This document shows, in pieces, positions 4,749 through 25,864 of a stretch of 46,612 nt of DNA (positions are counted from its first letter, which is position 1; each line of letters opens with the position of its first letter). The DNA is from a virus. A program made the position numbers and the translations under genes. The DNA lies in IMG/VR virus record IMGVR_UViG_3300027708_000114, positions 1-46,612 of that record. The stretch is one strand, 5' to 3'. The notes beneath the pieces were generated by a model. The model was not told the origin of the DNA, did not search any database, and saw only the letters and a program-made list of their open reading frames with translations.

Positions 4749-4930
4749 CAGCGCCCCTTGTCCATGTGTTGTTGAGCCCGTTCCAGATGCACAACGCGGT
4801 CGAAAACGTCCTTGGTTTGCCACGGATGGCGGCAATTTTGGCCCGGTTTTACCCCGCAGATGCCGCATTTTCTGTCCAGCGCGGCCAGAACTCGGGCATC
4901 TGCGGGGTCGTTGAGCCATGCCAAGCTCAC
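4748..4930 (-). CDS. Small zinc-binding protein (CxxC)
   Basis: A 60-aa protein with a GTG start overlapping the RecT stop (GTGA). It contains CGICGVKPGQNCRHP, a zinc-knuckle type seen in many actinophage proteins, and a helical tail (RVVHLERAQQHMDK). Position between RecT and the initiator-like gene suggests an accessory of recombination or replication, but no activity can be assigned. Confidence 0.7.
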   Translation of the reverse strand: MSLAWLNDPADARVLAALDRKCGICGVKPGQNCRHPWQTKDVFDRVVHLERAQQHMDKGR

Positions 4931-5691
4931 TCGCTAATCTCCGGTGTCGGCTCAATTTCTGCCTCGATGTACTCAGTTGGCACACCCAGTAGGTCGGCCG
5001 CGGTGTCGGTGACGCTGATGTCGCGCACGATTTCGTCCTGCTGCGCGGCGACGTTGAACTCACTCGACATCGGCAGCCATTTGGCCAACTGCTTGACGGC
5101 GGTCTTCTTGGCCATCGCCGCCCAGTCGGTCACCCACGGTCCCGACTTGCCTGCCTTGGACCGCGAGCGAATGGCCTCGACCTCGTCAACGCCCATCACG
5201 ATGAACGGCGTACCACCGGACTTCAGCCGCGCTGCGGCGTAGACATGAGTGGGCTTGCCACGCTCGCCCAGTGCCGGCTTGTGCGTGAGGTCGCGCGCCA
5301 GGCCCAGGTCGTAGGCGAACTCATCCTTCTCATGCACGACCTCGGCCCAGATGTCGGACAGTTGCTCGGACTGCCACGCCAGCTTGATCAGACCGCGATA
5401 GCCGGGGATGAACGTGCAGGTCTGGCCGTAGGGCACCAAGTACGCCTCACCGAGCGGTCCCGGCTCGAGGCCGAGCTGGCTGGCGGTGAGCAGCGCACCC
5501 AGGAAGCTCTCGGGTGTGCAGCGGGACAGGCCGGGGTTCTGCCGCAGCACGGTCGTGGCGATGCGGGCCATTCGGTCGCCACTCATGTGTTTGGGCAGTG
5601 CGCGCGCCAGTTCGGGTTTCATCCGTTCGATGAGTTGAACAAGCGTCAGCTTGCCGTTCTGCGACACGGGCTTGTAATCAGTGCTGGTCAT
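4927..5691 (-). CDS. recT: RecT-family single-strand annealing protein
   Basis: A 254-aa protein with the RecT/Redbeta-like family layout: N-terminal LARALPKHMSGDRMARIATTVLRQNP, the hallmark block CTPESFLGALLTASQLGLEPG, then LGEAYLVPYG and FIPGYRGLIKLA. The C-terminal part has VTDWAAMAKKTAVKQLAKWLP. It anneals complementary single strands exposed by a 5'-3' exonuclease. The partner nuclease gene lies two genes upstream. The ATGA overlap with the upstream gene fixes the start at 5691. Confidence 0.95.
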   Translation of the reverse strand: MTSTDYKPVSQNGKLTLVQLIERMKPELARALPKHMSGDRMARIATTVLRQNPGLSRCTPESFLGALLTASQLGLEPGPLGEAYLVPYGQTCTFIPGYRGLIKLAWQSEQLSDIWAEVVHEKDEFAYDLGLARDLTHKPALGERGKPTHVYAAARLKSGGTPFIVMGVDEVEAIRSRSKAGKSGPWVTDWAAMAKKTAVKQLAKWLPMSSEFNVAAQQDEIVRDISVTDTAADLLGVPTEYIEAEIEPTPEISE

Positions 5692-5933
5692 TTCTTCTTC
5701 TCCCTTGGTTGTGTTCTTTTCCTCGTCCCTTTCGGGCCGTACATCTGCCGATCCCGATTCGCTCGGATGGTCGGATCGGGAAAGCAGACCGCGCACATGG
5801 TGCACGCGACCTGGACGGGCTCGACATGGCACAGCTTGCAAAGGCCGGCGAGAAACGCTTCGTTGTCGACGGCGCTGGCGCGGCGATACCAGCGGTCGTC
5901 GTGCAGGGTGGGAATCTCGACGGTGGCGGTCAC
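5688..5933 (-). CDS. Small zinc-finger protein between RecE and RecT
   Basis: An 81-aa protein from a GTG that overlaps the exonuclease stop (GTGA); the longer upstream frame runs through the exonuclease gene and is rejected. It has two Cys pairs in CKLCHVEPVQVACTMCAVC and a very basic C-terminus (RKRTQPREKKK). The basic tail and position suggest a nucleic-acid-binding accessory of the RecE/RecT pair; this is inference. Confidence 0.75.
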   Translation of the reverse strand: MTATVEIPTLHDDRWYRRASAVDNEAFLAGLCKLCHVEPVQVACTMCAVCFPDPTIRANRDRQMYGPKGTRKRTQPREKKK

Positions 5934-6922
5934 TTGATCTCCAACAATTCGCCAATCGACTCCTGCGCCCCGAACGCCCACCTCGGCAGATACATCGGCG
6001 TAATGCCCTCGAAATAGCCGCCCCAGAAATCCGATTCCATGCACCGCGCGTAGGTGTCGATGGCTTGGCGCATCAGCAGCGCGCCCTCCTGCATCGCCTC
6101 GCCGTCCCACTCGGTGACGCTGACGAGGTACGGCGGTTCCTTTTCCACGGCAACGAACACGAACGCCGCGCACGGGTCCAGCTCGAGCAGCGCCGCCACC
6201 TGGACGTACCACGCGGCCTGAAGGTGGTACTTGTAGTCGGCTGCCCTGCGCGCGAATGCTTTGGGCTCAGCGGTCACCGTCGTCTTGAGATCCACCAGCC
6301 ACAGCCGACCGCCAATCGTCGCCGACCAGTCGGGCCGCGCCTTGAGTCGCACGCCGGTTGTCGGGTCATCGGTGAGCAGTGATACCTCGGCCTCGCCCAA
6401 ACCTTCGCCGATGATTCCGCTCGCCATCGGGTGCGCCAGCACCGCGTCGGCCATTGCTTTGATCTGCGCGAAGTCGCCGCTCAGAATCGGAATCACACCA
6501 GCCGCATATGCCTCATTGCGCGCCTCGGACGCCGCCTTACTGCGCCAGTCCTTGGCGTCAATGATGTGCAGCGGCGCGCCCTCGCCCAGCACCAGACCGT
6601 GAACCGCTTTGCCCAGGTCGAACACGGCGTTGCTCGGCGGCGGGTTGTCGCGCTGCTGCCTAAACTTGGCTGGGCATGACGGCGGCACCAGCAGTTTGGC
6701 GCCGCTGGCCGACAGACCCGGCAGCCGGTGGTACACCGTGTCGGGTATGCCACGCCACCGTCCGGACGGGATGTCGGCGACAGGCAGCAGGATGTCGCTG
6801 CTGACGTGCAACGTGTCACTGCCTACTGTGACGGCGGTCTGCTCGTCACCGACCTCGGTGACGGTGCCGACGTTCAGCCAGTCGGCGGTATGCCGCCACC
6901 AGACTTGGTCTCCGATGTTCAT
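5930..6922 (-). CDS. RecE/RecB-like exonuclease (PD-(D/E)XK)
   Basis: A 330-aa protein. Residues about 90-240 carry the RecB/RecE-type nuclease motifs: GKAVHGL (Gly104, His108), ARPDW with Asp198, VDLKTT with Asp211 and Lys213, and YHLQAAWY with Gln235. Residues 1-50 form a separate Trp/Val-rich beta segment (MNIGDQVWWRHTADWLN) resembling an SH3-like add-on. The enzyme would resect dsDNA ends to load the RecT protein encoded downstream. Start overlaps the upstream stop as ATGA. Confidence 0.88.
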   Translation of the reverse strand: MNIGDQVWWRHTADWLNVGTVTEVGDEQTAVTVGSDTLHVSSDILLPVADIPSGRWRGIPDTVYHRLPGLSASGAKLLVPPSCPAKFRQQRDNPPPSNAVFDLGKAVHGLVLGEGAPLHIIDAKDWRSKAASEARNEAYAAGVIPILSGDFAQIKAMADAVLAHPMASGIIGEGLGEAEVSLLTDDPTTGVRLKARPDWSATIGGRLWLVDLKTTVTAEPKAFARRAADYKYHLQAAWYVQVAALLELDPCAAFVFVAVEKEPPYLVSVTEWDGEAMQEGALLMRQAIDTYARCMESDFWGGYFEGITPMYLPRWAFGAQESIGELLEIK

Positions 6923-7944
6923 GCCTTTGCTCCCTTGGTGGTGCGAGTTGTAGACCGCAGCGGCGAGCGCGTTATGGGTTTCGTGAGCCGACTGGCCACT
7001 GCGGTTGTCTTTGTTTTTCGCGCCTTTTTGACCGCCTTCGTTCCGGTCATTTCGGTGGTTATGGACCGCAGCGGCGTTGCACCACTGGGCTTCAAAGGTG
7101 GTCTGGCCGCTGCGGTTGCTTCATGGATGCGCTTGGACTCAACCCACAAGTCCTTCAGGAACTCCTTGGCGACAGCGCGAATCGCCCGAGCCCTCTGATG
7201 TCCCATCGATAACGGCGAGCCAGCAAGTGCCGGTTTGCCGGCGGGGCCGCAGCGCACGCAGTCATGGGCGTGAACGGAGTCGGCGTACTTGTCGCGGATG
7301 CTCTCGTAGTACGCGCGGTAAGGGCGACTGGCGACGGGTGACCCATCGGGCATGGGCCAAGTGCGACCGCCCTCCTTGACCAAAGATTCCGCGATCAGGA
7401 AGCACCGCTTGCGTGCGGTGTCATTCCAGTTGGCCTTCTGCCCTCGCTGGCGACGTGGTGCGTCGCCGTTGATGACGTGGTAGCCGCAGTACGCCCACAG
7501 TTCACTGACGGTGCGCGGTCGGTTGTGTAGGTCATTCCAGTAGGGGTCGCGCACCGATTGCAAAAGCCGTCCGAACTGCTTGGCGCCCAGGCCGGTGATC
7601 GGCTTGGCCCACCCCCACAGCGCGTGCGCGCGCATGGATTTCTCCAAGTGCTTGATCGCGTCTTTTTCCAGATTCTCAATGGCATTGACCAACGCCGTAA
7701 GAACCATGACGTTGTCCTCAAACGGGTCCATACCATGACCGCGCTCGCTGGTATCAGTCAGCGTTCGCAGGCGATTGCACTCTGCGGTGCGAACCGCTTC
7801 TAAGTCATCCACTACGTCGGCGGCGATGCCGATGGACGGGTCGGCGAGGATGGGGCCGAGAGCGACAATCTGCGATTGGGTGTCGCCTGTTTCCTGGTCG
7901 CTCTCGGGGTCTGGGTCGGGCGTGCCGATTAAGGTGATGGTCAT
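6919..7944 (-). CDS. Tas-like protein: Nop/IS110-C-terminal-like domain, no nuclease
   Basis: A 341-aa protein. Residues 35-105 are a helical, probably coiled-coil segment. At 111-190 is a block typical of the IS110 transposase C-terminal domain: GWAKPITGLGAKQFGRLL (helix-hairpin-helix), TVSELWAYCGYHV, then RRQRGQKANWND and RKRCFLIAESLVK. A later segment has YRAYYESIRDKY, a CVRC pair (229-232) and GHQRARAIRAVAKEFLKDLW. The last 60 residues are Lys/Arg/Thr-rich. The DEDD/RuvC-like catalytic half of IS110 is absent. This domain is structurally related to the Nop domain of box C/D RNPs and of TIGR-associated (Tas) proteins. It directly follows the five-unit array and has its own AAGGAG site eight bases before ATG. 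Family assignment is by motif reading only. Confidence 0.62.
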   Translation of the reverse strand: MTITLIGTPDPDPESDQETGDTQSQIVALGPILADPSIGIAADVVDDLEAVRTAECNRLRTLTDTSERGHGMDPFEDNVMVLTALVNAIENLEKDAIKHLEKSMRAHALWGWAKPITGLGAKQFGRLLQSVRDPYWNDLHNRPRTVSELWAYCGYHVINGDAPRRQRGQKANWNDTARKRCFLIAESLVKEGGRTWPMPDGSPVASRPYRAYYESIRDKYADSVHAHDCVRCGPAGKPALAGSPLSMGHQRARAIRAVAKEFLKDLWVESKRIHEATAAARPPLKPSGATPLRSITTEMTGTKAVKKARKTKTTAVASRLTKPITRSPLRSTTRTTKGAKA

Positions 7945-8288
7945 GGTGCTAACTCCTTGCGTGGGATAGAAGAAAAACCGACAACGGCAAATGTCGCCTG
8001 GAAATCGCCGCTGGCGTGGCCGTTGTCGGTGGTCTGATCGTCAACAGCGGCGGAGCTATGGGACGCGCGCGGTAATTGGCTGTTGACGATGGTCAGTTCG
8101 CCGCCGACGCCGCGAGCTTGGGCTGCGGCATGGTCTTGGTCGGCGGCAAAGTGTGAACCGAGAGCGGCGGGTTGAGGCTGGATTTCGCTGGCGCGATGGC
8201 CGCTCTCGGTGGTCTGGTTCCTTGCCGAGGCGCTCGACGCTTGGGGCTCGGCAGTTTGTTGGCCTCGGCGGGGAAGTGTGACGCTCAT
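7941..8288 (-). CDS. Open frame spanning the hairpin array (115 aa, coding status doubtful)
   Basis: The frame starts in an ATGA overlap with the upstream gene and ends in an ATGA overlap with the Tas-like gene, which favours translation or at least ribosome passage. The product is low-complexity (Ala, Gln, Ser, His) with no hydrophobic core. The DNA periodicity of 60 bases makes a weak 20-aa repeat. Since the nucleotide-level pattern (complementary arms) explains the sequence better than the protein does, the frame may be open mainly because the unit length is a multiple of three. Confidence 0.35.
   Translation of the reverse strand: MSVTLPRRGQQTAEPQASSASARNQTTESGHRASEIQPQPAALGSHFAADQDHAAAQARGVGGELTIVNSQLPRASHSSAAVDDQTTDNGHASGDFQATFAVVGFSSIPRKELAP
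7977..8281 (-). repeat. Five-unit tandem array of paired complementary arms (TIGR-like guide array)
   Basis: Each unit is arm A (12 nt), loop (30 nt), arm B (12 nt, reverse complement of A), then a conserved hexamer. Arms: 7977-7988/8019-8030 (12 of 12 pair), 8037-8048/8079-8090 (12), 8097-8108/8139-8150 (11), 8157-8168/8199-8210 (12), 8220-8231/8262-8273 (10). Unit starts are spaced 60, 60, 60 and 63. Hexamers (plus strand) at 8031, 8091, 8151, 8211 and 8276 are GGTCTG, GGTCAG, GTGTGA, GGTCTG, GTGTGA. On the minus strand all five loops start with CA and share CG at loop positions 12-13 and CCA at 18-20. Arm sequences differ between units although pairing is kept. It lies immediately 5' of the Tas-like gene on the same strand. 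Confidence 0.85.
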
Positions 8289-8818
8289 TTGTCGCCCTTC
8301 AAGATGTCTGAGGCCACAACGGCCTTCTTGCGGCGCATGAGCGTGATGACGTGACGCAGGTTGGCAATCTGCTTTTCGGTTCGGTCAATCAACTGCTGCC
8401 GTTGCTCAATGGCGATGGTCAAGTCATCGACGGTGCAGTCGCCGATCAGCTTCCACTCGTTGGCGCCGAGGTTGACCTTGCACCGGAACAGGTCACGCAT
8501 TGAGTCTTGATACGCGCGGCGTTCGGCAAGTTTGACTGAGTAGTTCGACCCAGCCTGCGCGGCCGATGGCACAATCGGCTCTGCCAGCACGCTGTCCATC
8601 GCGCGGCGCCGGTCCTCGCCGATGACGTTGACAACGTAGGGGTACAGCGTGACGGCGAACAGGTCGCGCAGGTCATCGTCTTCTACCAAATCGTTGACGA
8701 TGGCGGCAACCTTGCCAGGGTCATCGTTGGGATGGTTGGCGACGGTGTCGCGGATCATTCGACGCAGCCGGAATGACGGCTTCTCGTCGCTGAACTCAAT
8801 TGCTTCTGCTGTACTCAT
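8285..8818 (-). CDS. Hypothetical 177-aa protein
   Basis: A mostly alpha-helical protein (VAAIVNDLVEDDDLRDLFAVTLYPYVVNVIGEDRRRAM) with a C-terminal heptad-like segment (TIAIEQRQQLIDRTEKQIANLRHVITLMRRKK). The family recurs in actinophage early regions without known function, as far as I can tell. ATGA overlaps at both ends tie it to the DUF732-like gene upstream and the array/Tas-like locus downstream. Confidence 0.7.
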   Translation of the reverse strand: MSTAEAIEFSDEKPSFRLRRMIRDTVANHPNDDPGKVAAIVNDLVEDDDLRDLFAVTLYPYVVNVIGEDRRRAMDSVLAEPIVPSAAQAGSNYSVKLAERRAYQDSMRDLFRCKVNLGANEWKLIGDCTVDDLTIAIEQRQQLIDRTEKQIANLRHVITLMRRKKAVVASDILKGDK

Positions 8819-12231: not shown

Positions 12232-13524
12232 TTATGCCATTGCCTCGGTAATTTCAAACAAGTTTTGAGTCACGATGATTGCTTTATCCGCTTTGTGAGA
12301 CTCAAGTTCTGCGCGCGCAGCGGCTTCACGTTGTTTACGCGCGAATTTGATTTCTTTGTAGGCTTGGTAAGCGTCAGATTTTGGTTGCGCTTGGCCGAGG
12401 CTGTGGCACCAGTAGTCATTGCGGAGCAGTGCTTTGGCCATGCGCCGCCATGATGGCGCCCATTGCTTTGCTTCAAGGACGGCGGGCGCTTCGTCGGGCA
12501 TCGTTGTGTAACCACGACCCTGCCAGCCTTTGATGAATCTACGAAAGCGGTCAATGTAATGATCGCGGGTTGTTTTAGGCAAACTGGCTAGCAGCAGGTT
12601 GGTGAATGATTTCCAGGTATGCCCTTCGGGCAGCGTCACCGTGCGGTAGCCGGCGATGTTGCCAGATTCCTGAACATAAAGTGCGCCGGTATTGGCGCCG
12701 TTGACTCGGGCGATGAGCTTGAACCATGTGTCGGGTTCAAGAATGTGGTACAGCCATAGCCCTTGGCGCTGGTCGTCGCCAAAAGGTTGGCACAAACGTT
12801 GTTTGGATAACGGCACACCGGCCTTAAACATCAGGTCGTAAACTCGGTTGGAGGGCAGTTCTGGTTGGCGACCGTGGAAACGCCAGATGTCCTCGGTGGC
12901 CCAATCGTAGATTGGGTAGATGTTGTAGAGGTTGTCGGTCAAACCAGTTGTCCATCGTTTACCGTCGCGCATGGGTTTGCTGTTCCAGCGAACAATGGAT
13001 GCCAGCCGCTTTAAGGATTCGTCGGCGCGAATGCCGACAAATGCTCCAGTCATTTGATCGCCTGCGTACCACTTCCCCCATAAGACGATGAACTCCTCAA
13101 ACTCCATGCCAGGTACAAACCACTCGTAGTCAATGACGGCATCGGCGGGTTTCGGTCGCACCCAAAGTTCTGGGCAATCGTCGTCCCAGCACGTCCATTG
13201 CGGCTCGTAGTTGGTCACAGCATTGCGAAGGTTCATGGGTAGGCATACCCAGTGCAGGTCAATGTGGTCCCGGTAAAGGTCAACGCAGTTTTGAATGTGT
13301 TCGACAGTGGCGCGGTACTGCGCCTCCATGTCGATGATGAGAACTCCAACGGTGCGGCCGCGGCGCTTGGCTTCGTCCATAACCAGGTGCAGCATCACGG
13401 TGGAATCTTTGCCGCCGGAAAAGGAAATGTATAACTTCTCAAACTGGTCAAACGCCCAAGCGATGCGTTCGCGTGCAGCCGCAAGCACTGTTTTGTTGGG
13501 GTTATAGATTTTGCGTGCATCCAT
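12232..13524 (-). CDS. PAPS-reductase-like / IbrA-like protein
   Basis: From ATG 13524 (TAATG overlap) the product is 430 aa. Residues 30-60 carry the PP-loop SFSGGKDST that binds the nucleotide in PAPS reductases, tRNA thiolation enzymes and DndC. The middle and C-terminal regions (GAFVGIRADESLKR, YPIYDWATEDIWRF, LCQPFGDDQRQGLWLYHI) match the DUF3440-type extension of IbrA. With the ParB-like gene upstream it forms an IbrB/IbrA-type pair. Sulfur or nucleotide chemistry on DNA is possible, but the reaction is not known. Codons are AT-richer than neighbours, suggesting recent acquisition. Confidence 0.88.
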   Translation of the reverse strand: MDARKIYNPNKTVLAAARERIAWAFDQFEKLYISFSGGKDSTVMLHLVMDEAKRRGRTVGVLIIDMEAQYRATVEHIQNCVDLYRDHIDLHWVCLPMNLRNAVTNYEPQWTCWDDDCPELWVRPKPADAVIDYEWFVPGMEFEEFIVLWGKWYAGDQMTGAFVGIRADESLKRLASIVRWNSKPMRDGKRWTTGLTDNLYNIYPIYDWATEDIWRFHGRQPELPSNRVYDLMFKAGVPLSKQRLCQPFGDDQRQGLWLYHILEPDTWFKLIARVNGANTGALYVQESGNIAGYRTVTLPEGHTWKSFTNLLLASLPKTTRDHYIDRFRRFIKGWQGRGYTTMPDEAPAVLEAKQWAPSWRRMAKALLRNDYWCHSLGQAQPKSDAYQAYKEIKFARKQREAAARAELESHKADKAIIVTQNLFEITEAMA

Positions 13525-13952
13525 TAGTACAACTCCGGTTGCGTTGTGCGTTCGGCGTCTTTTAACGTCGCCAGCGTGGGTTCGCCACGAGATTTCAGCC
13601 ATTTGTTAAGGTATTCCAAAGCGGCCAGGTTCGCTTGATGTTGCTGTTCAATCGTCAGCAGATTGAAACCGTTACAAAACGCTGACGGCATTCCCGTCGC
13701 GTAGCACATCGCGGCTTGGCCCAACCATGCGATGCGGTTCATGCGGTCGTTGGACAGGTAATGCTCGGTGGAGTTCGACCACTCGCGTAGTACGCCTGCC
13801 ATCGCTTTTTTGAATCGCGGTATGTCGGCTAAGAACTCGGCGTACATTGCCTTGCATGCGCCCTCGGACAGATTGCGGGTTTTGAGTTTGGTGTCGTAGA
13901 AGCCGGCCGGGTAGCATTCCCACTTGTCCCATGTGTGATAGATGCGTTTCAT
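13524..13952 (-). CDS. Unknown middle gene of the ParB/PAPSR cassette
   Basis: From ATG 13952 (TAATG overlap with the ParB-like stop) the product is 142 aa. It is helical and aromatic-rich: MKRIYHTWDKWECYPAGFYD, then DIPRFKKAMAGVLREWSNSTEHYLS, and RMNRIAWLGQAAMCYATG followed by EQQHQANLAALEYLNKWL. I recognise no named domain. Single-base overlaps with both neighbours show that the three genes are expressed as a unit, so it is probably a third component of that system. Confidence 0.8.
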   Translation of the reverse strand: MKRIYHTWDKWECYPAGFYDTKLKTRNLSEGACKAMYAEFLADIPRFKKAMAGVLREWSNSTEHYLSNDRMNRIAWLGQAAMCYATGMPSAFCNGFNLLTIEQQHQANLAALEYLNKWLKSRGEPTLATLKDAERTTQPELY

Positions 13953-24118: not shown

Positions 24119-25864
24119 CTAAATCGTTGCGGCGCGTTGGACGGCGATGGACAGGGAGGGCTGCGCGGGTGTGACCGTCTTTGTGGTCGCGGCGGTCGTG
24201 GTCGCGGTGGTGGTGATGGTGGGCGTGACCGTCAGCGCGACGGCACCGTATCGGGTCTTACTGGCCGCCGTAGATACGACCGGCACGACCGACAGTGCAG
24301 CCGCTCCGAACGCTTTGCGGGTCGCCGCCGTGGGTGTGGTCGGCGTGACCGTCAGCGCGGCAGATGCGAACGCTTTCCGAGTCGCCGCCGTGGACGTGAC
24401 TGGCGTGACCGTCAGCGCGGCAGATGCGGTCAGACGCTTGCCTGTCGCCGTGGACACGGTGGGCGTGACCGTCAGCGCGGCAGATGCGGTAATTGCTGCC
24501 GTGGTTTTCGTCGCAGTGGTGGTGATGGTGGGCGTGACGGTGAGTGACGAGGATGCGTAATGCTTGACCGTTGGTGAACCAAGCGCAGGGAACGGCGTAG
24601 TCGCCGGCGTGAAGGTGGACGTGTACCGGGCGTAGCCTTTGGTGACGCGGATTTCGTCTACATACCCATTAAAAGGTGTCGTTGCGCTCCCAAGTTTACC
24701 GACTGCAAACGAACTAGTGGCGGCATAGTTCGTTGAGTCTGACCAGGTGGAACCCTTCTGCACACCGTCAACGAACATCCTGGTCGAACCACCGGAACGG
24801 CTTACGGCGATGTGCTGCCAAGCCCCGGTGGTGATTGCAGCAGCGCCGCTATTGATCTGCTGAACATTGTCAATGTCCCAAAGCAGCACCCCGTTTGAAA
24901 CAAGCAACCACTGAATATCTGGATTAGCGAACCCTACGTCAAAGCTCCCGTTAACCGGAAGCGATATTGTGTACAGCCACATCTCAATCGTGAAATCGCC
25001 CGTTCCGAAAGCAAAGGTCGACAACGCCGCGCTGGATGCAATATAGCTGTTTGAATTGGGGAAGCTGACCGATGCACTACCGAACTTTGACTGCGCGGTG
25101 GAGAGTATCGCGCCATTGATGGAGTTGAAGTTCGCCGCGAGGGATGACGAGTCGGTGAACGTGGTTGAACCGTTTGACCCGTCGGCGTGGAGCAGCGCAA
25201 CAACCTGAGAGTAGGCGGCATCGCCTGTAGATACGACCGGGGTGACGGTGAGCGCAGCGTTGGCGTGGATGACCTTTGCCGCGCTGACCGTGCGCGCCGG
25301 GGTGACGGTGAGCGCCACGGCGGGCTTCGCGGTGAGCTTCGTCGCCGCCGTGAATACCGGCGTGACTGTCAGCAGCGCGCCCTTGGAGGTCTGGCGCACC
25401 TCGATGGCAATCTCCACTGGGGTCACGGTCAGCGATGCCGTGGCGTAGGCGCCGCGCTTGGCCGCGGCGACAAGAGCCGGGGTGACCGCCAGTGTGGACG
25501 ACGCGAACCGGATGCGCTTGCCAGCAGTCGACACCGCAGGCGTCACCGTCAGCGAGGCGCTGGCGTGAATGACCTTGGTGACCGCAGCGGCACGCGACGG
25601 TGTGACGGTGAGCGATGCGCTGGCGATCTTGGCGCGCACACCCGATGTCGATACCGCTGGCGTCACCGTCAGCACACCGACAATCGACTTTATGCCCGTG
25701 CGGCCGGACACCAGAACTCTCGGCGACACCAGCAGCGACACATCCGCGAGGTAACGCACGCTGCTCACGATGAGCGATGCGCCCGAAACCATCGTCGTGG
25801 ACGATTCCGGCGCAACCAGAACTGACGTTGACTCAGGTGCGACAACCGCGACGGGAGTGGTCAT
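24119..25864 (-). CDS. Repeat-rich tail fibre with LamG/concanavalin-like domain
   Basis: A 581-aa protein. Many copies of a roughly 17-20-aa unit (xxSAxLTVTPxxSTAxxx) flank a central LamG-like domain at about 215-420 (VVALLHADGSNGSTTFTDSS, GTGDFTIEMWLY, GAWQHIAVSR, MFVDGVQKGS, GYVDEIRVTKGYARY). LamG domains bind glycans, so this is a plausible adsorption protein with spacer-like repeats. The DNA repeats at 24342-24480 have an exact 60-bp period. Start ATG 25864 has AGGTGAG just upstream. Confidence 0.82.
   Translation of the reverse strand: MTTPVAVVAPESTSVLVAPESSTTMVSGASLIVSSVRYLADVSLLVSPRVLVSGRTGIKSIVGVLTVTPAVSTSGVRAKIASASLTVTPSRAAAVTKVIHASASLTVTPAVSTAGKRIRFASSTLAVTPALVAAAKRGAYATASLTVTPVEIAIEVRQTSKGALLTVTPVFTAATKLTAKPAVALTVTPARTVSAAKVIHANAALTVTPVVSTGDAAYSQVVALLHADGSNGSTTFTDSSSLAANFNSINGAILSTAQSKFGSASVSFPNSNSYIASSAALSTFAFGTGDFTIEMWLYTISLPVNGSFDVGFANPDIQWLLVSNGVLLWDIDNVQQINSGAAAITTGAWQHIAVSRSGGSTRMFVDGVQKGSTWSDSTNYAATSSFAVGKLGSATTPFNGYVDEIRVTKGYARYTSTFTPATTPFPALGSPTVKHYASSSLTVTPTITTTATKTTAAITASAALTVTPTVSTATGKRLTASAALTVTPVTSTAATRKAFASAALTVTPTTPTAATRKAFGAAALSVVPVVSTAASKTRYGAVALTVTPTITTTATTTAATTKTVTPAQPSLSIAVQRAATI
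24342..24480. repeat. Exact 60-bp-period coding repeats
   Basis: The 19-mer GGCGTGACCGTCAGCGCGG recurs at 24342-24360, 24402-24420 and 24462-24480, with further degenerate copies through 24560 and across about 25230-25690. They encode the VTP-type repeats of the LamG protein. Direct repeats such as these allow copy-number change by recombination or slippage. Confidence 0.85.

Follow-up and report, generated by a model that had tools for sequence, protein, structure and literature searches.

The 46,612-nt virus record IMGVR_UViG_3300027708_000114, which was analyzed over its full length and is called the window below, carries on its minus strand a gene for a 177-aa protein, a row of five hairpin units, and a gene for a 341-aa protein, in this order. 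This locus raises the question of whether the hairpins are the guides of an RNA-guided system and, if so, how such guides are built and what they serve. In the published mechanism of TIGR-Tas systems, a Tas dimer works with a single guide; the two spacers of this guide base-pair with adjoining 9-bp half-sites, each spacer on a different strand. As described in the main text of PMC12045711, TIGR arrays of the stem-loop type combine two 8-12-nt spacers, set between boxes C and D, with palindromic closing sequences, and their effector is TasA. The best overall explanation of our results is that the phage carries a nuclease-less TIGR-TasA RNA-guide system with a stem-loop array, and we assign a probability of about 0.93 to this reading. 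The partner gene, the five guide units and tasA, which contains three more units, probably constitute one operon-like stretch of the minus strand.

Features of the putative TIGR-TasA locus in the window (guide units numbered in transcript order)
Feature	Coordinates	Strand	Remarks
Partner gene, 177 aa, PHROG 4604	8285..8818	-	upstream of the array; order partner - array - tas kept in relatives
115-aa open frame through guide units 1-5	7941..8288	-	ATGA overlap with the neighbour at each end
Guide unit 1	8218..8275	-	spacer A ACAAACTGC, spacer B AGCGTCGAG
Guide unit 2	8157..8210	-	spacer A TCGCGCCAG, spacer B GCCTCAACC
Guide unit 3	8097..8150	-	spacer A AGACCATGC, spacer B AGCTCGCGG
Guide unit 4	8037..8090	-	spacer A ATTACCGCG, spacer B TAGCTCCGC
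Guide unit 5	7977..8030	-	spacer A CGCCAGCGG, spacer B GGCGACATT
tasA, predicted 341-aa Nop-domain protein without nuclease domain	6919..7944	-	homology and predicted fold
Guide unit 6, within tasA, codes for part of the N-terminal extension	7856..7907	-	spacer A GGAAACAGG, spacer B ATCGCAGAT
Guide unit 7, within tasA, codes for part of the C-terminal tail	7065..7116	-	spacer A GACCACCTT, spacer B GTGGTGCAA
Guide unit 8, within tasA, C-terminal tail	6954..7005	-	spacer A GTCGGCTCA, spacer B TAACGCGCT

The identity of the effector was established by sequence and by predicted structure. The 341-aa protein scores 211 bits against the NCBIfam TIGR_Tas model NF052498 (cut-off 100), and it is matched by the solved TasR (9mty) with E-values of 3.5e-14 in a single-sequence phmmer search and 3.1e-27 with a profile, as well as by TasH (2.2e-13). 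The AlphaFold model of the protein has a mean pLDDT of 84.6, and a Foldseek search with this model against the PDB returned TasR (1.9e-9) and TasH (4.6e-7) at the top, with a probability of 1.00, followed by Nop5 (1nt2, E 0.23). By these sequence matches and the modeled fold, the 341-aa protein is a member of the Tas family with a Nop domain. It has no match in Pfam, including none to a nuclease domain, and its alignment to TasR begins at TasR residue 146, past the RuvC part. We call the protein TasA-like because a nuclease domain (RuvC or HNH) is absent, although the name of the NCBI family reads ‘endonuclease’. The conserved core of tasA spans approximately residues 38-277 (approximately positions 7114-7833). 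The low-confidence parts of the model, namely the first ~30 and the last ~65 residues, correspond to guide units 6, 7 and 8 in the gene, and the N- and C-terminal extensions are missing from the close relatives L001-L004.

A sequence-only reading of the same DNA had proposed a nuclease-less TIGR-Tas system in an actinophage, with a 341-aa frame co-directional with and downstream of the hairpins, and both points hold. The structural similarity to Nop or IS110 domains that it had put forward as a check was also found, in the form of the matches to TasR, TasH and Nop5. The family assigned by that reading is right, while the anatomy that it gave to the guides is wrong, as described below.

The five tandem units at 7977-8275, each with a 30-nt loop, have arms complementary at 12, 12, 11, 12 and 10 of 12 positions, which confirms the values noted previously. 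Hairpins with arms complementary at 11 or more of 12 positions and a 30-nt loop occur eight times in the window, compared with a mean of 0.14 and a maximum of one when the whole window was dinucleotide-shuffled 100 times, and six of the eight fall in the guide/tas locus. Within 500 bp around the array there are four such hairpins (shuffle mean 0.0005). The two of the eight that lie outside this locus, at 1183 and 4853, were rejected as guide units, as they have no internal CCA/YG frame. The inventory of five units given by the earlier reading stands, but it missed the three further units inside the 341-aa frame, and RNA folding of all eight is better than that of their own shuffles (z = -3.4 to -5.4). 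A tandem repeat with a period of 60 (three copies, 24307-24488) inside a 581-aa frame with a Laminin_G_3 domain is unrelated to the guide array.

Read in the direction of the transcript, each unit consists of stem, C/T, CA, nine bases, YG, four bases, CCA, nine bases, Y, G/A, and stem. The consensus of 290 unique canonical units from relatives is [CT]CA-N9-YG(98%)-N4-CCA-N9-Y[GA]. These units were gathered by the stem and the CA/CCA positions alone, and the YG after the first nine bases was not imposed; its first base was nonetheless always C or T, and its second base was G in 98% of the 290 units. In the reverse test, 328 of 364 sites selected by boxes only, on the tas strand near tas, had at least 7 of 8 stem pairs, whereas on the opposite strand this was the case for none of 20. 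The unit is defined by the internal CCA and YG motifs, and not by the hexamers noted earlier between units, for which relatives show no conservation. Within the 30-nt loop lie two spacers of 9 nt, each between a box C (CCA) and a box D (YG), and spacers A and B of a unit have no mutual complementarity. The complementary arms form a palindromic closing stem that is variable between units. A conserved edge repeat is absent and the period is ~60 nt, so the array differs from dual-repeat arrays, which have two alternating 8-12-nt repeats and a period of ~36 nt; it has the organization of stem-loop arrays, in which a variable palindromic closing sequence replaces the edge repeats. No matching family was found in Rfam. 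The 60-nt period had been considered longer than expected for the published class, but a hairpin unit of ~60 nt is that of the stem-loop array already presented in the main text of PMC12045711, and the inference of a divergent subtype therefore does not follow.

The tas gene was detected in 84 phage records, 60 IMG/VR contigs and eight bacterial genome assemblies (Mycobacterium, Actinomadura, Parafrankia, Nocardia, and MAGs), and the TIGR-TasA system was found at 72 other loci. The array of the cluster A1 mycobacteriophages is present in 74 records at a fixed syntenic place. Comparison of slots 1-4 among ~30 cluster A1 phages revealed one to five stem variants per slot versus 12-17 distinct loops, and some stem variants differ by compensatory changes (GACCGGACC/GGTCCGGTC versus GACCGGGCC/GGCCCGGTC, and CCCCTGAACGCC/GGCCTTCAGGGG versus CCCCTGAAGTTC/GAACTTCAGGGG). 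Stems and boxes are conserved in cluster A1, and the spacers are hypervariable. In the earlier reading, the two arms were themselves the spacers, aimed at one site; because the stems are kept and the loop interiors vary in cluster A1, the reverse of what this assignment requires, we conclude that the arms are not spacers. The cluster A1 guides (L002-L004, L009-L022, L102-L105, L126-L140) are mosaic, with some A halves paired with several B halves, and related guides occupy different slots, as in phage Barriga, where the guide of slot 1 is like the slot 3 guides of other phages.

Guide units also lie within the effector gene itself. Altogether, 29 loci have 44 units inside tas; these units occupy an insertion that separates the conserved motifs ELWxYCG and NWS and has conserved tas sequence at either end. 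Examples of this insertion of the Nop domain, with one to three units per gene, are L044:4405-4460, L016:4449-4565 and L056:4434-4610. Of the 61 units that lie within the core of the frame or follow it, 54 have one reading phase in common, perhaps because the insertions have a common ancestor. This placement of guides in the tas coding sequence appears to be a new feature, and it poses the puzzle of a transcript that would be translated as well as cut into guides.

The second feature that appears to be new is a linked partner directly upstream of the array, and this linkage holds within the set searched. An iterated profile of the 177-aa partner, an unannotated member of PHROG 4604 (function unknown), matched in 71 of 72 tas loci, always upstream on the same strand; a single-sequence search of viral contigs with the partner gave nothing. 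When the partner and tas were searched separately in 118 Mycobacterium-group genomes, each gave three strong hits, in the same three genomes, all of which also carry guide units alongside. One weak partner match (8e-5) in this set was in a genome without tas and without guide units. No relative of the partner was found in Pfam, NCBIfam, PADLOC or the PDB. Its predicted fold, helical with a beta hairpin and without a match in the PDB, is similar to that of uncharacterised proteins from the phages Omega and Rich. We consider the odds about even that the actinophage TIGR-TasA is a two-protein system, in which the partner would be obligate (e.g., for guide processing, for diversification, or as an effector recruited by TasA) and, with guides nested in the effector coding sequence, one transcript would be both guide precursor and effector mRNA. 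Other genes were noted nearby and elsewhere on the phage. RecT and a PDDEXK (DUF3799) exonuclease are encoded directly downstream of tas (4927-6922), a RecB/Cas4-like exonuclease gene is found two genes downstream of tas in cluster A1 phages, and a PAPS reductase / DUF3440 phosphoadenosine-type gene is located at 12232-13602 of the window.

Two other origins of the locus were weighed against a guide system, and we regard both as highly improbable. The locus could be the remnant or domesticated derivative of an IS110-type transposase, with the hairpins as relics of a bridge RNA for transposition or integration: PHROG 4285 is labelled transposase, many records annotate the tas gene as ‘transposase’, Pfam Transposase_20 matches two of 44 relatives, and the Nop and IS110 domains are related. 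Against this, the window protein has no DEDD catalytic domain and no match to Pfam Transposase_20 or the NCBIfam IS110 model (which reaches 14 bits in one relative, with a cut-off of 140), and TasR and TasH, rather than IS110, rank first by structure and by sequence. Many tandem guide units, instead of a single two-loop bridge RNA, and the constant syntenic position across 74 cluster A1 records also argue against a transposase. The 115-aa frame, in turn, could be a real gene for a repetitive protein, with the inverted repeats as a by-product of coding; it is open, it overlaps both neighbours through ATGA, and most of the tas-internal units hold one reading phase. Yet a tblastn search with this protein found no relative in the 72 other loci (0/72), where stems and boxes are kept, the spacers vary freely among isolates while the stems persist, and in nearly all cluster A1 records viewed, the stretch that carries the units has no gene annotated. 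By this sequence comparison, the 115-aa frame is not conserved as a protein. Conservation of the 115-aa protein with loss of arm complementarity had been named as the pattern that would speak against a guide array, and the opposite was seen.

The remaining alternative concerns the targets of the guides. Candidate targets were defined as sites in which spacer A and then the reverse complement of spacer B occur, with gaps from -2 to 5. The search covered loci (~0.65 Mb, both strands), contigs (0.35 Mb) and mycobacteriophage genomes (0.36 Mb), and real pairs matched about as often as shuffled pairs. Exact scans of IMG/VR with six guide patterns yielded 0-14 scattered, chance-like matches, one guide had zero matches in 148 Mycobacterium genomes, and no plasmid match was found. 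One guide of locus L060 (L060:3801) matches the tas gene of L044 (L044:4712) at 17 of 18 positions with gap 2, possibly by chance; we leave this pairing unproven because the sole exact IMG/VR match of this guide lies in an unrelated reading frame, nuclease-like by eye. The differences between guide alleles are third-codon-like (gap 2 assumed; few alleles), and a peptide search prompted by this pattern gave chance-level matches only. Thus, no natural target was found in the phage DNA, IMG/VR or Mycobacterium genomes searched, and for this reason our claims on the purpose of the system are limited. That the array regulates the phage's own genes, through self-targeting guides or attenuator-like hairpins, and not other DNA, would be consistent with units located in the effector mRNA, partly within the effector gene, and with an effector that lacks a nuclease. 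We consider it unlikely, since the guides have no above-chance match to own or related phage sequences in the loci, contigs and mycobacteriophage genomes listed above, and external targets are better suited to hypervariable spacers.

For the preferred reading, a nuclease-less TIGR-TasA system with a stem-loop array, the function beyond anatomy is proposed from analogues, namely TasR, TasH and a single published TasA array. The transcript would be cut between hairpins into guides of ~54-60 nt, in line with the cleavage in linkers that the main text of PMC12045711 describes for stem-loop arrays. Each guide would comprise the closing stem and two spacers of 9 nt, both with a box C (CCA) on one side and a box D (YG) on the other, and would be held by a pseudo-symmetric TasA dimer. 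Following the published TasR rule, the guide would recognize one DNA site made of two adjoining 9-bp halves, with spacer A pairing to one strand and spacer B to the other, and the nuclease-free TasA would bind and bend this site. If the site belongs to a competing phage, prophage or plasmid, bound TasA may block its transcription, replication or recombination; alternatively, TasA may regulate a gene.

According to the main text of PMC12045711, the field has yet to settle the role of nuclease-less TasA and the targets of TIGR spacers, and progress on both is held back because most systems are known from metagenomes. The actinophage branch is a variant worth study through its linked partner and guide nesting, and it is tractable through the cluster A1 isolates. 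The 74 records of sequenced mycobacteriophages, with M. smegmatis as the isolation host, have four to five array slots; their fixed stems and isolate-specific guides amount to a natural allele series for which deletion, swapping and assay are possible in a laboratory host. With dozens of related laboratory mycobacteriophages, the job of the system is open to testing, as is the strictly linked partner as its second component.

Among known systems, the archaeal box C/D snoRNP protein Nop5 shares with the phage protein a distant fold match and the logic of box C/D guides, but it acts on RNA together with L7Ae and fibrillarin, neither of which was seen at the phage locus. IS110 family transposases with bridge RNA have a related C-terminal RNA-binding domain, whereas the phage protein lacks DEDD and is accompanied by a tandem array instead of a single bridge RNA. 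TasH (PDB 21kl, 9vzx) has the same Nop domain fold and, in contrast to the phage protein, an HNH nuclease. TaTasR (PDB 9mty) is alike in its Nop domain, coiled coil, CCA box C, UG box D and 9-nt spacers, and unlike in its N-terminal RuvC nuclease and its dual-repeat array with 36-nt guides, both absent from the phage system. The TIGR-TasA of a Peromyscus leucopus gut contig (Faure et al. 2025, PMC12045711, Fig. 7) likewise combines a Nop-only Tas with tandem hairpins and variable palindromic stems, and the main text of that paper describes neither tas-internal guide units nor an upstream partner. Compared with the system of this contig, the one described here belongs to an actinophage host group, has in nearly every unit a CCA box C and a YG box D, with 9-nt spacers, and carries guide units within tas as well as a conserved partner upstream of the array.
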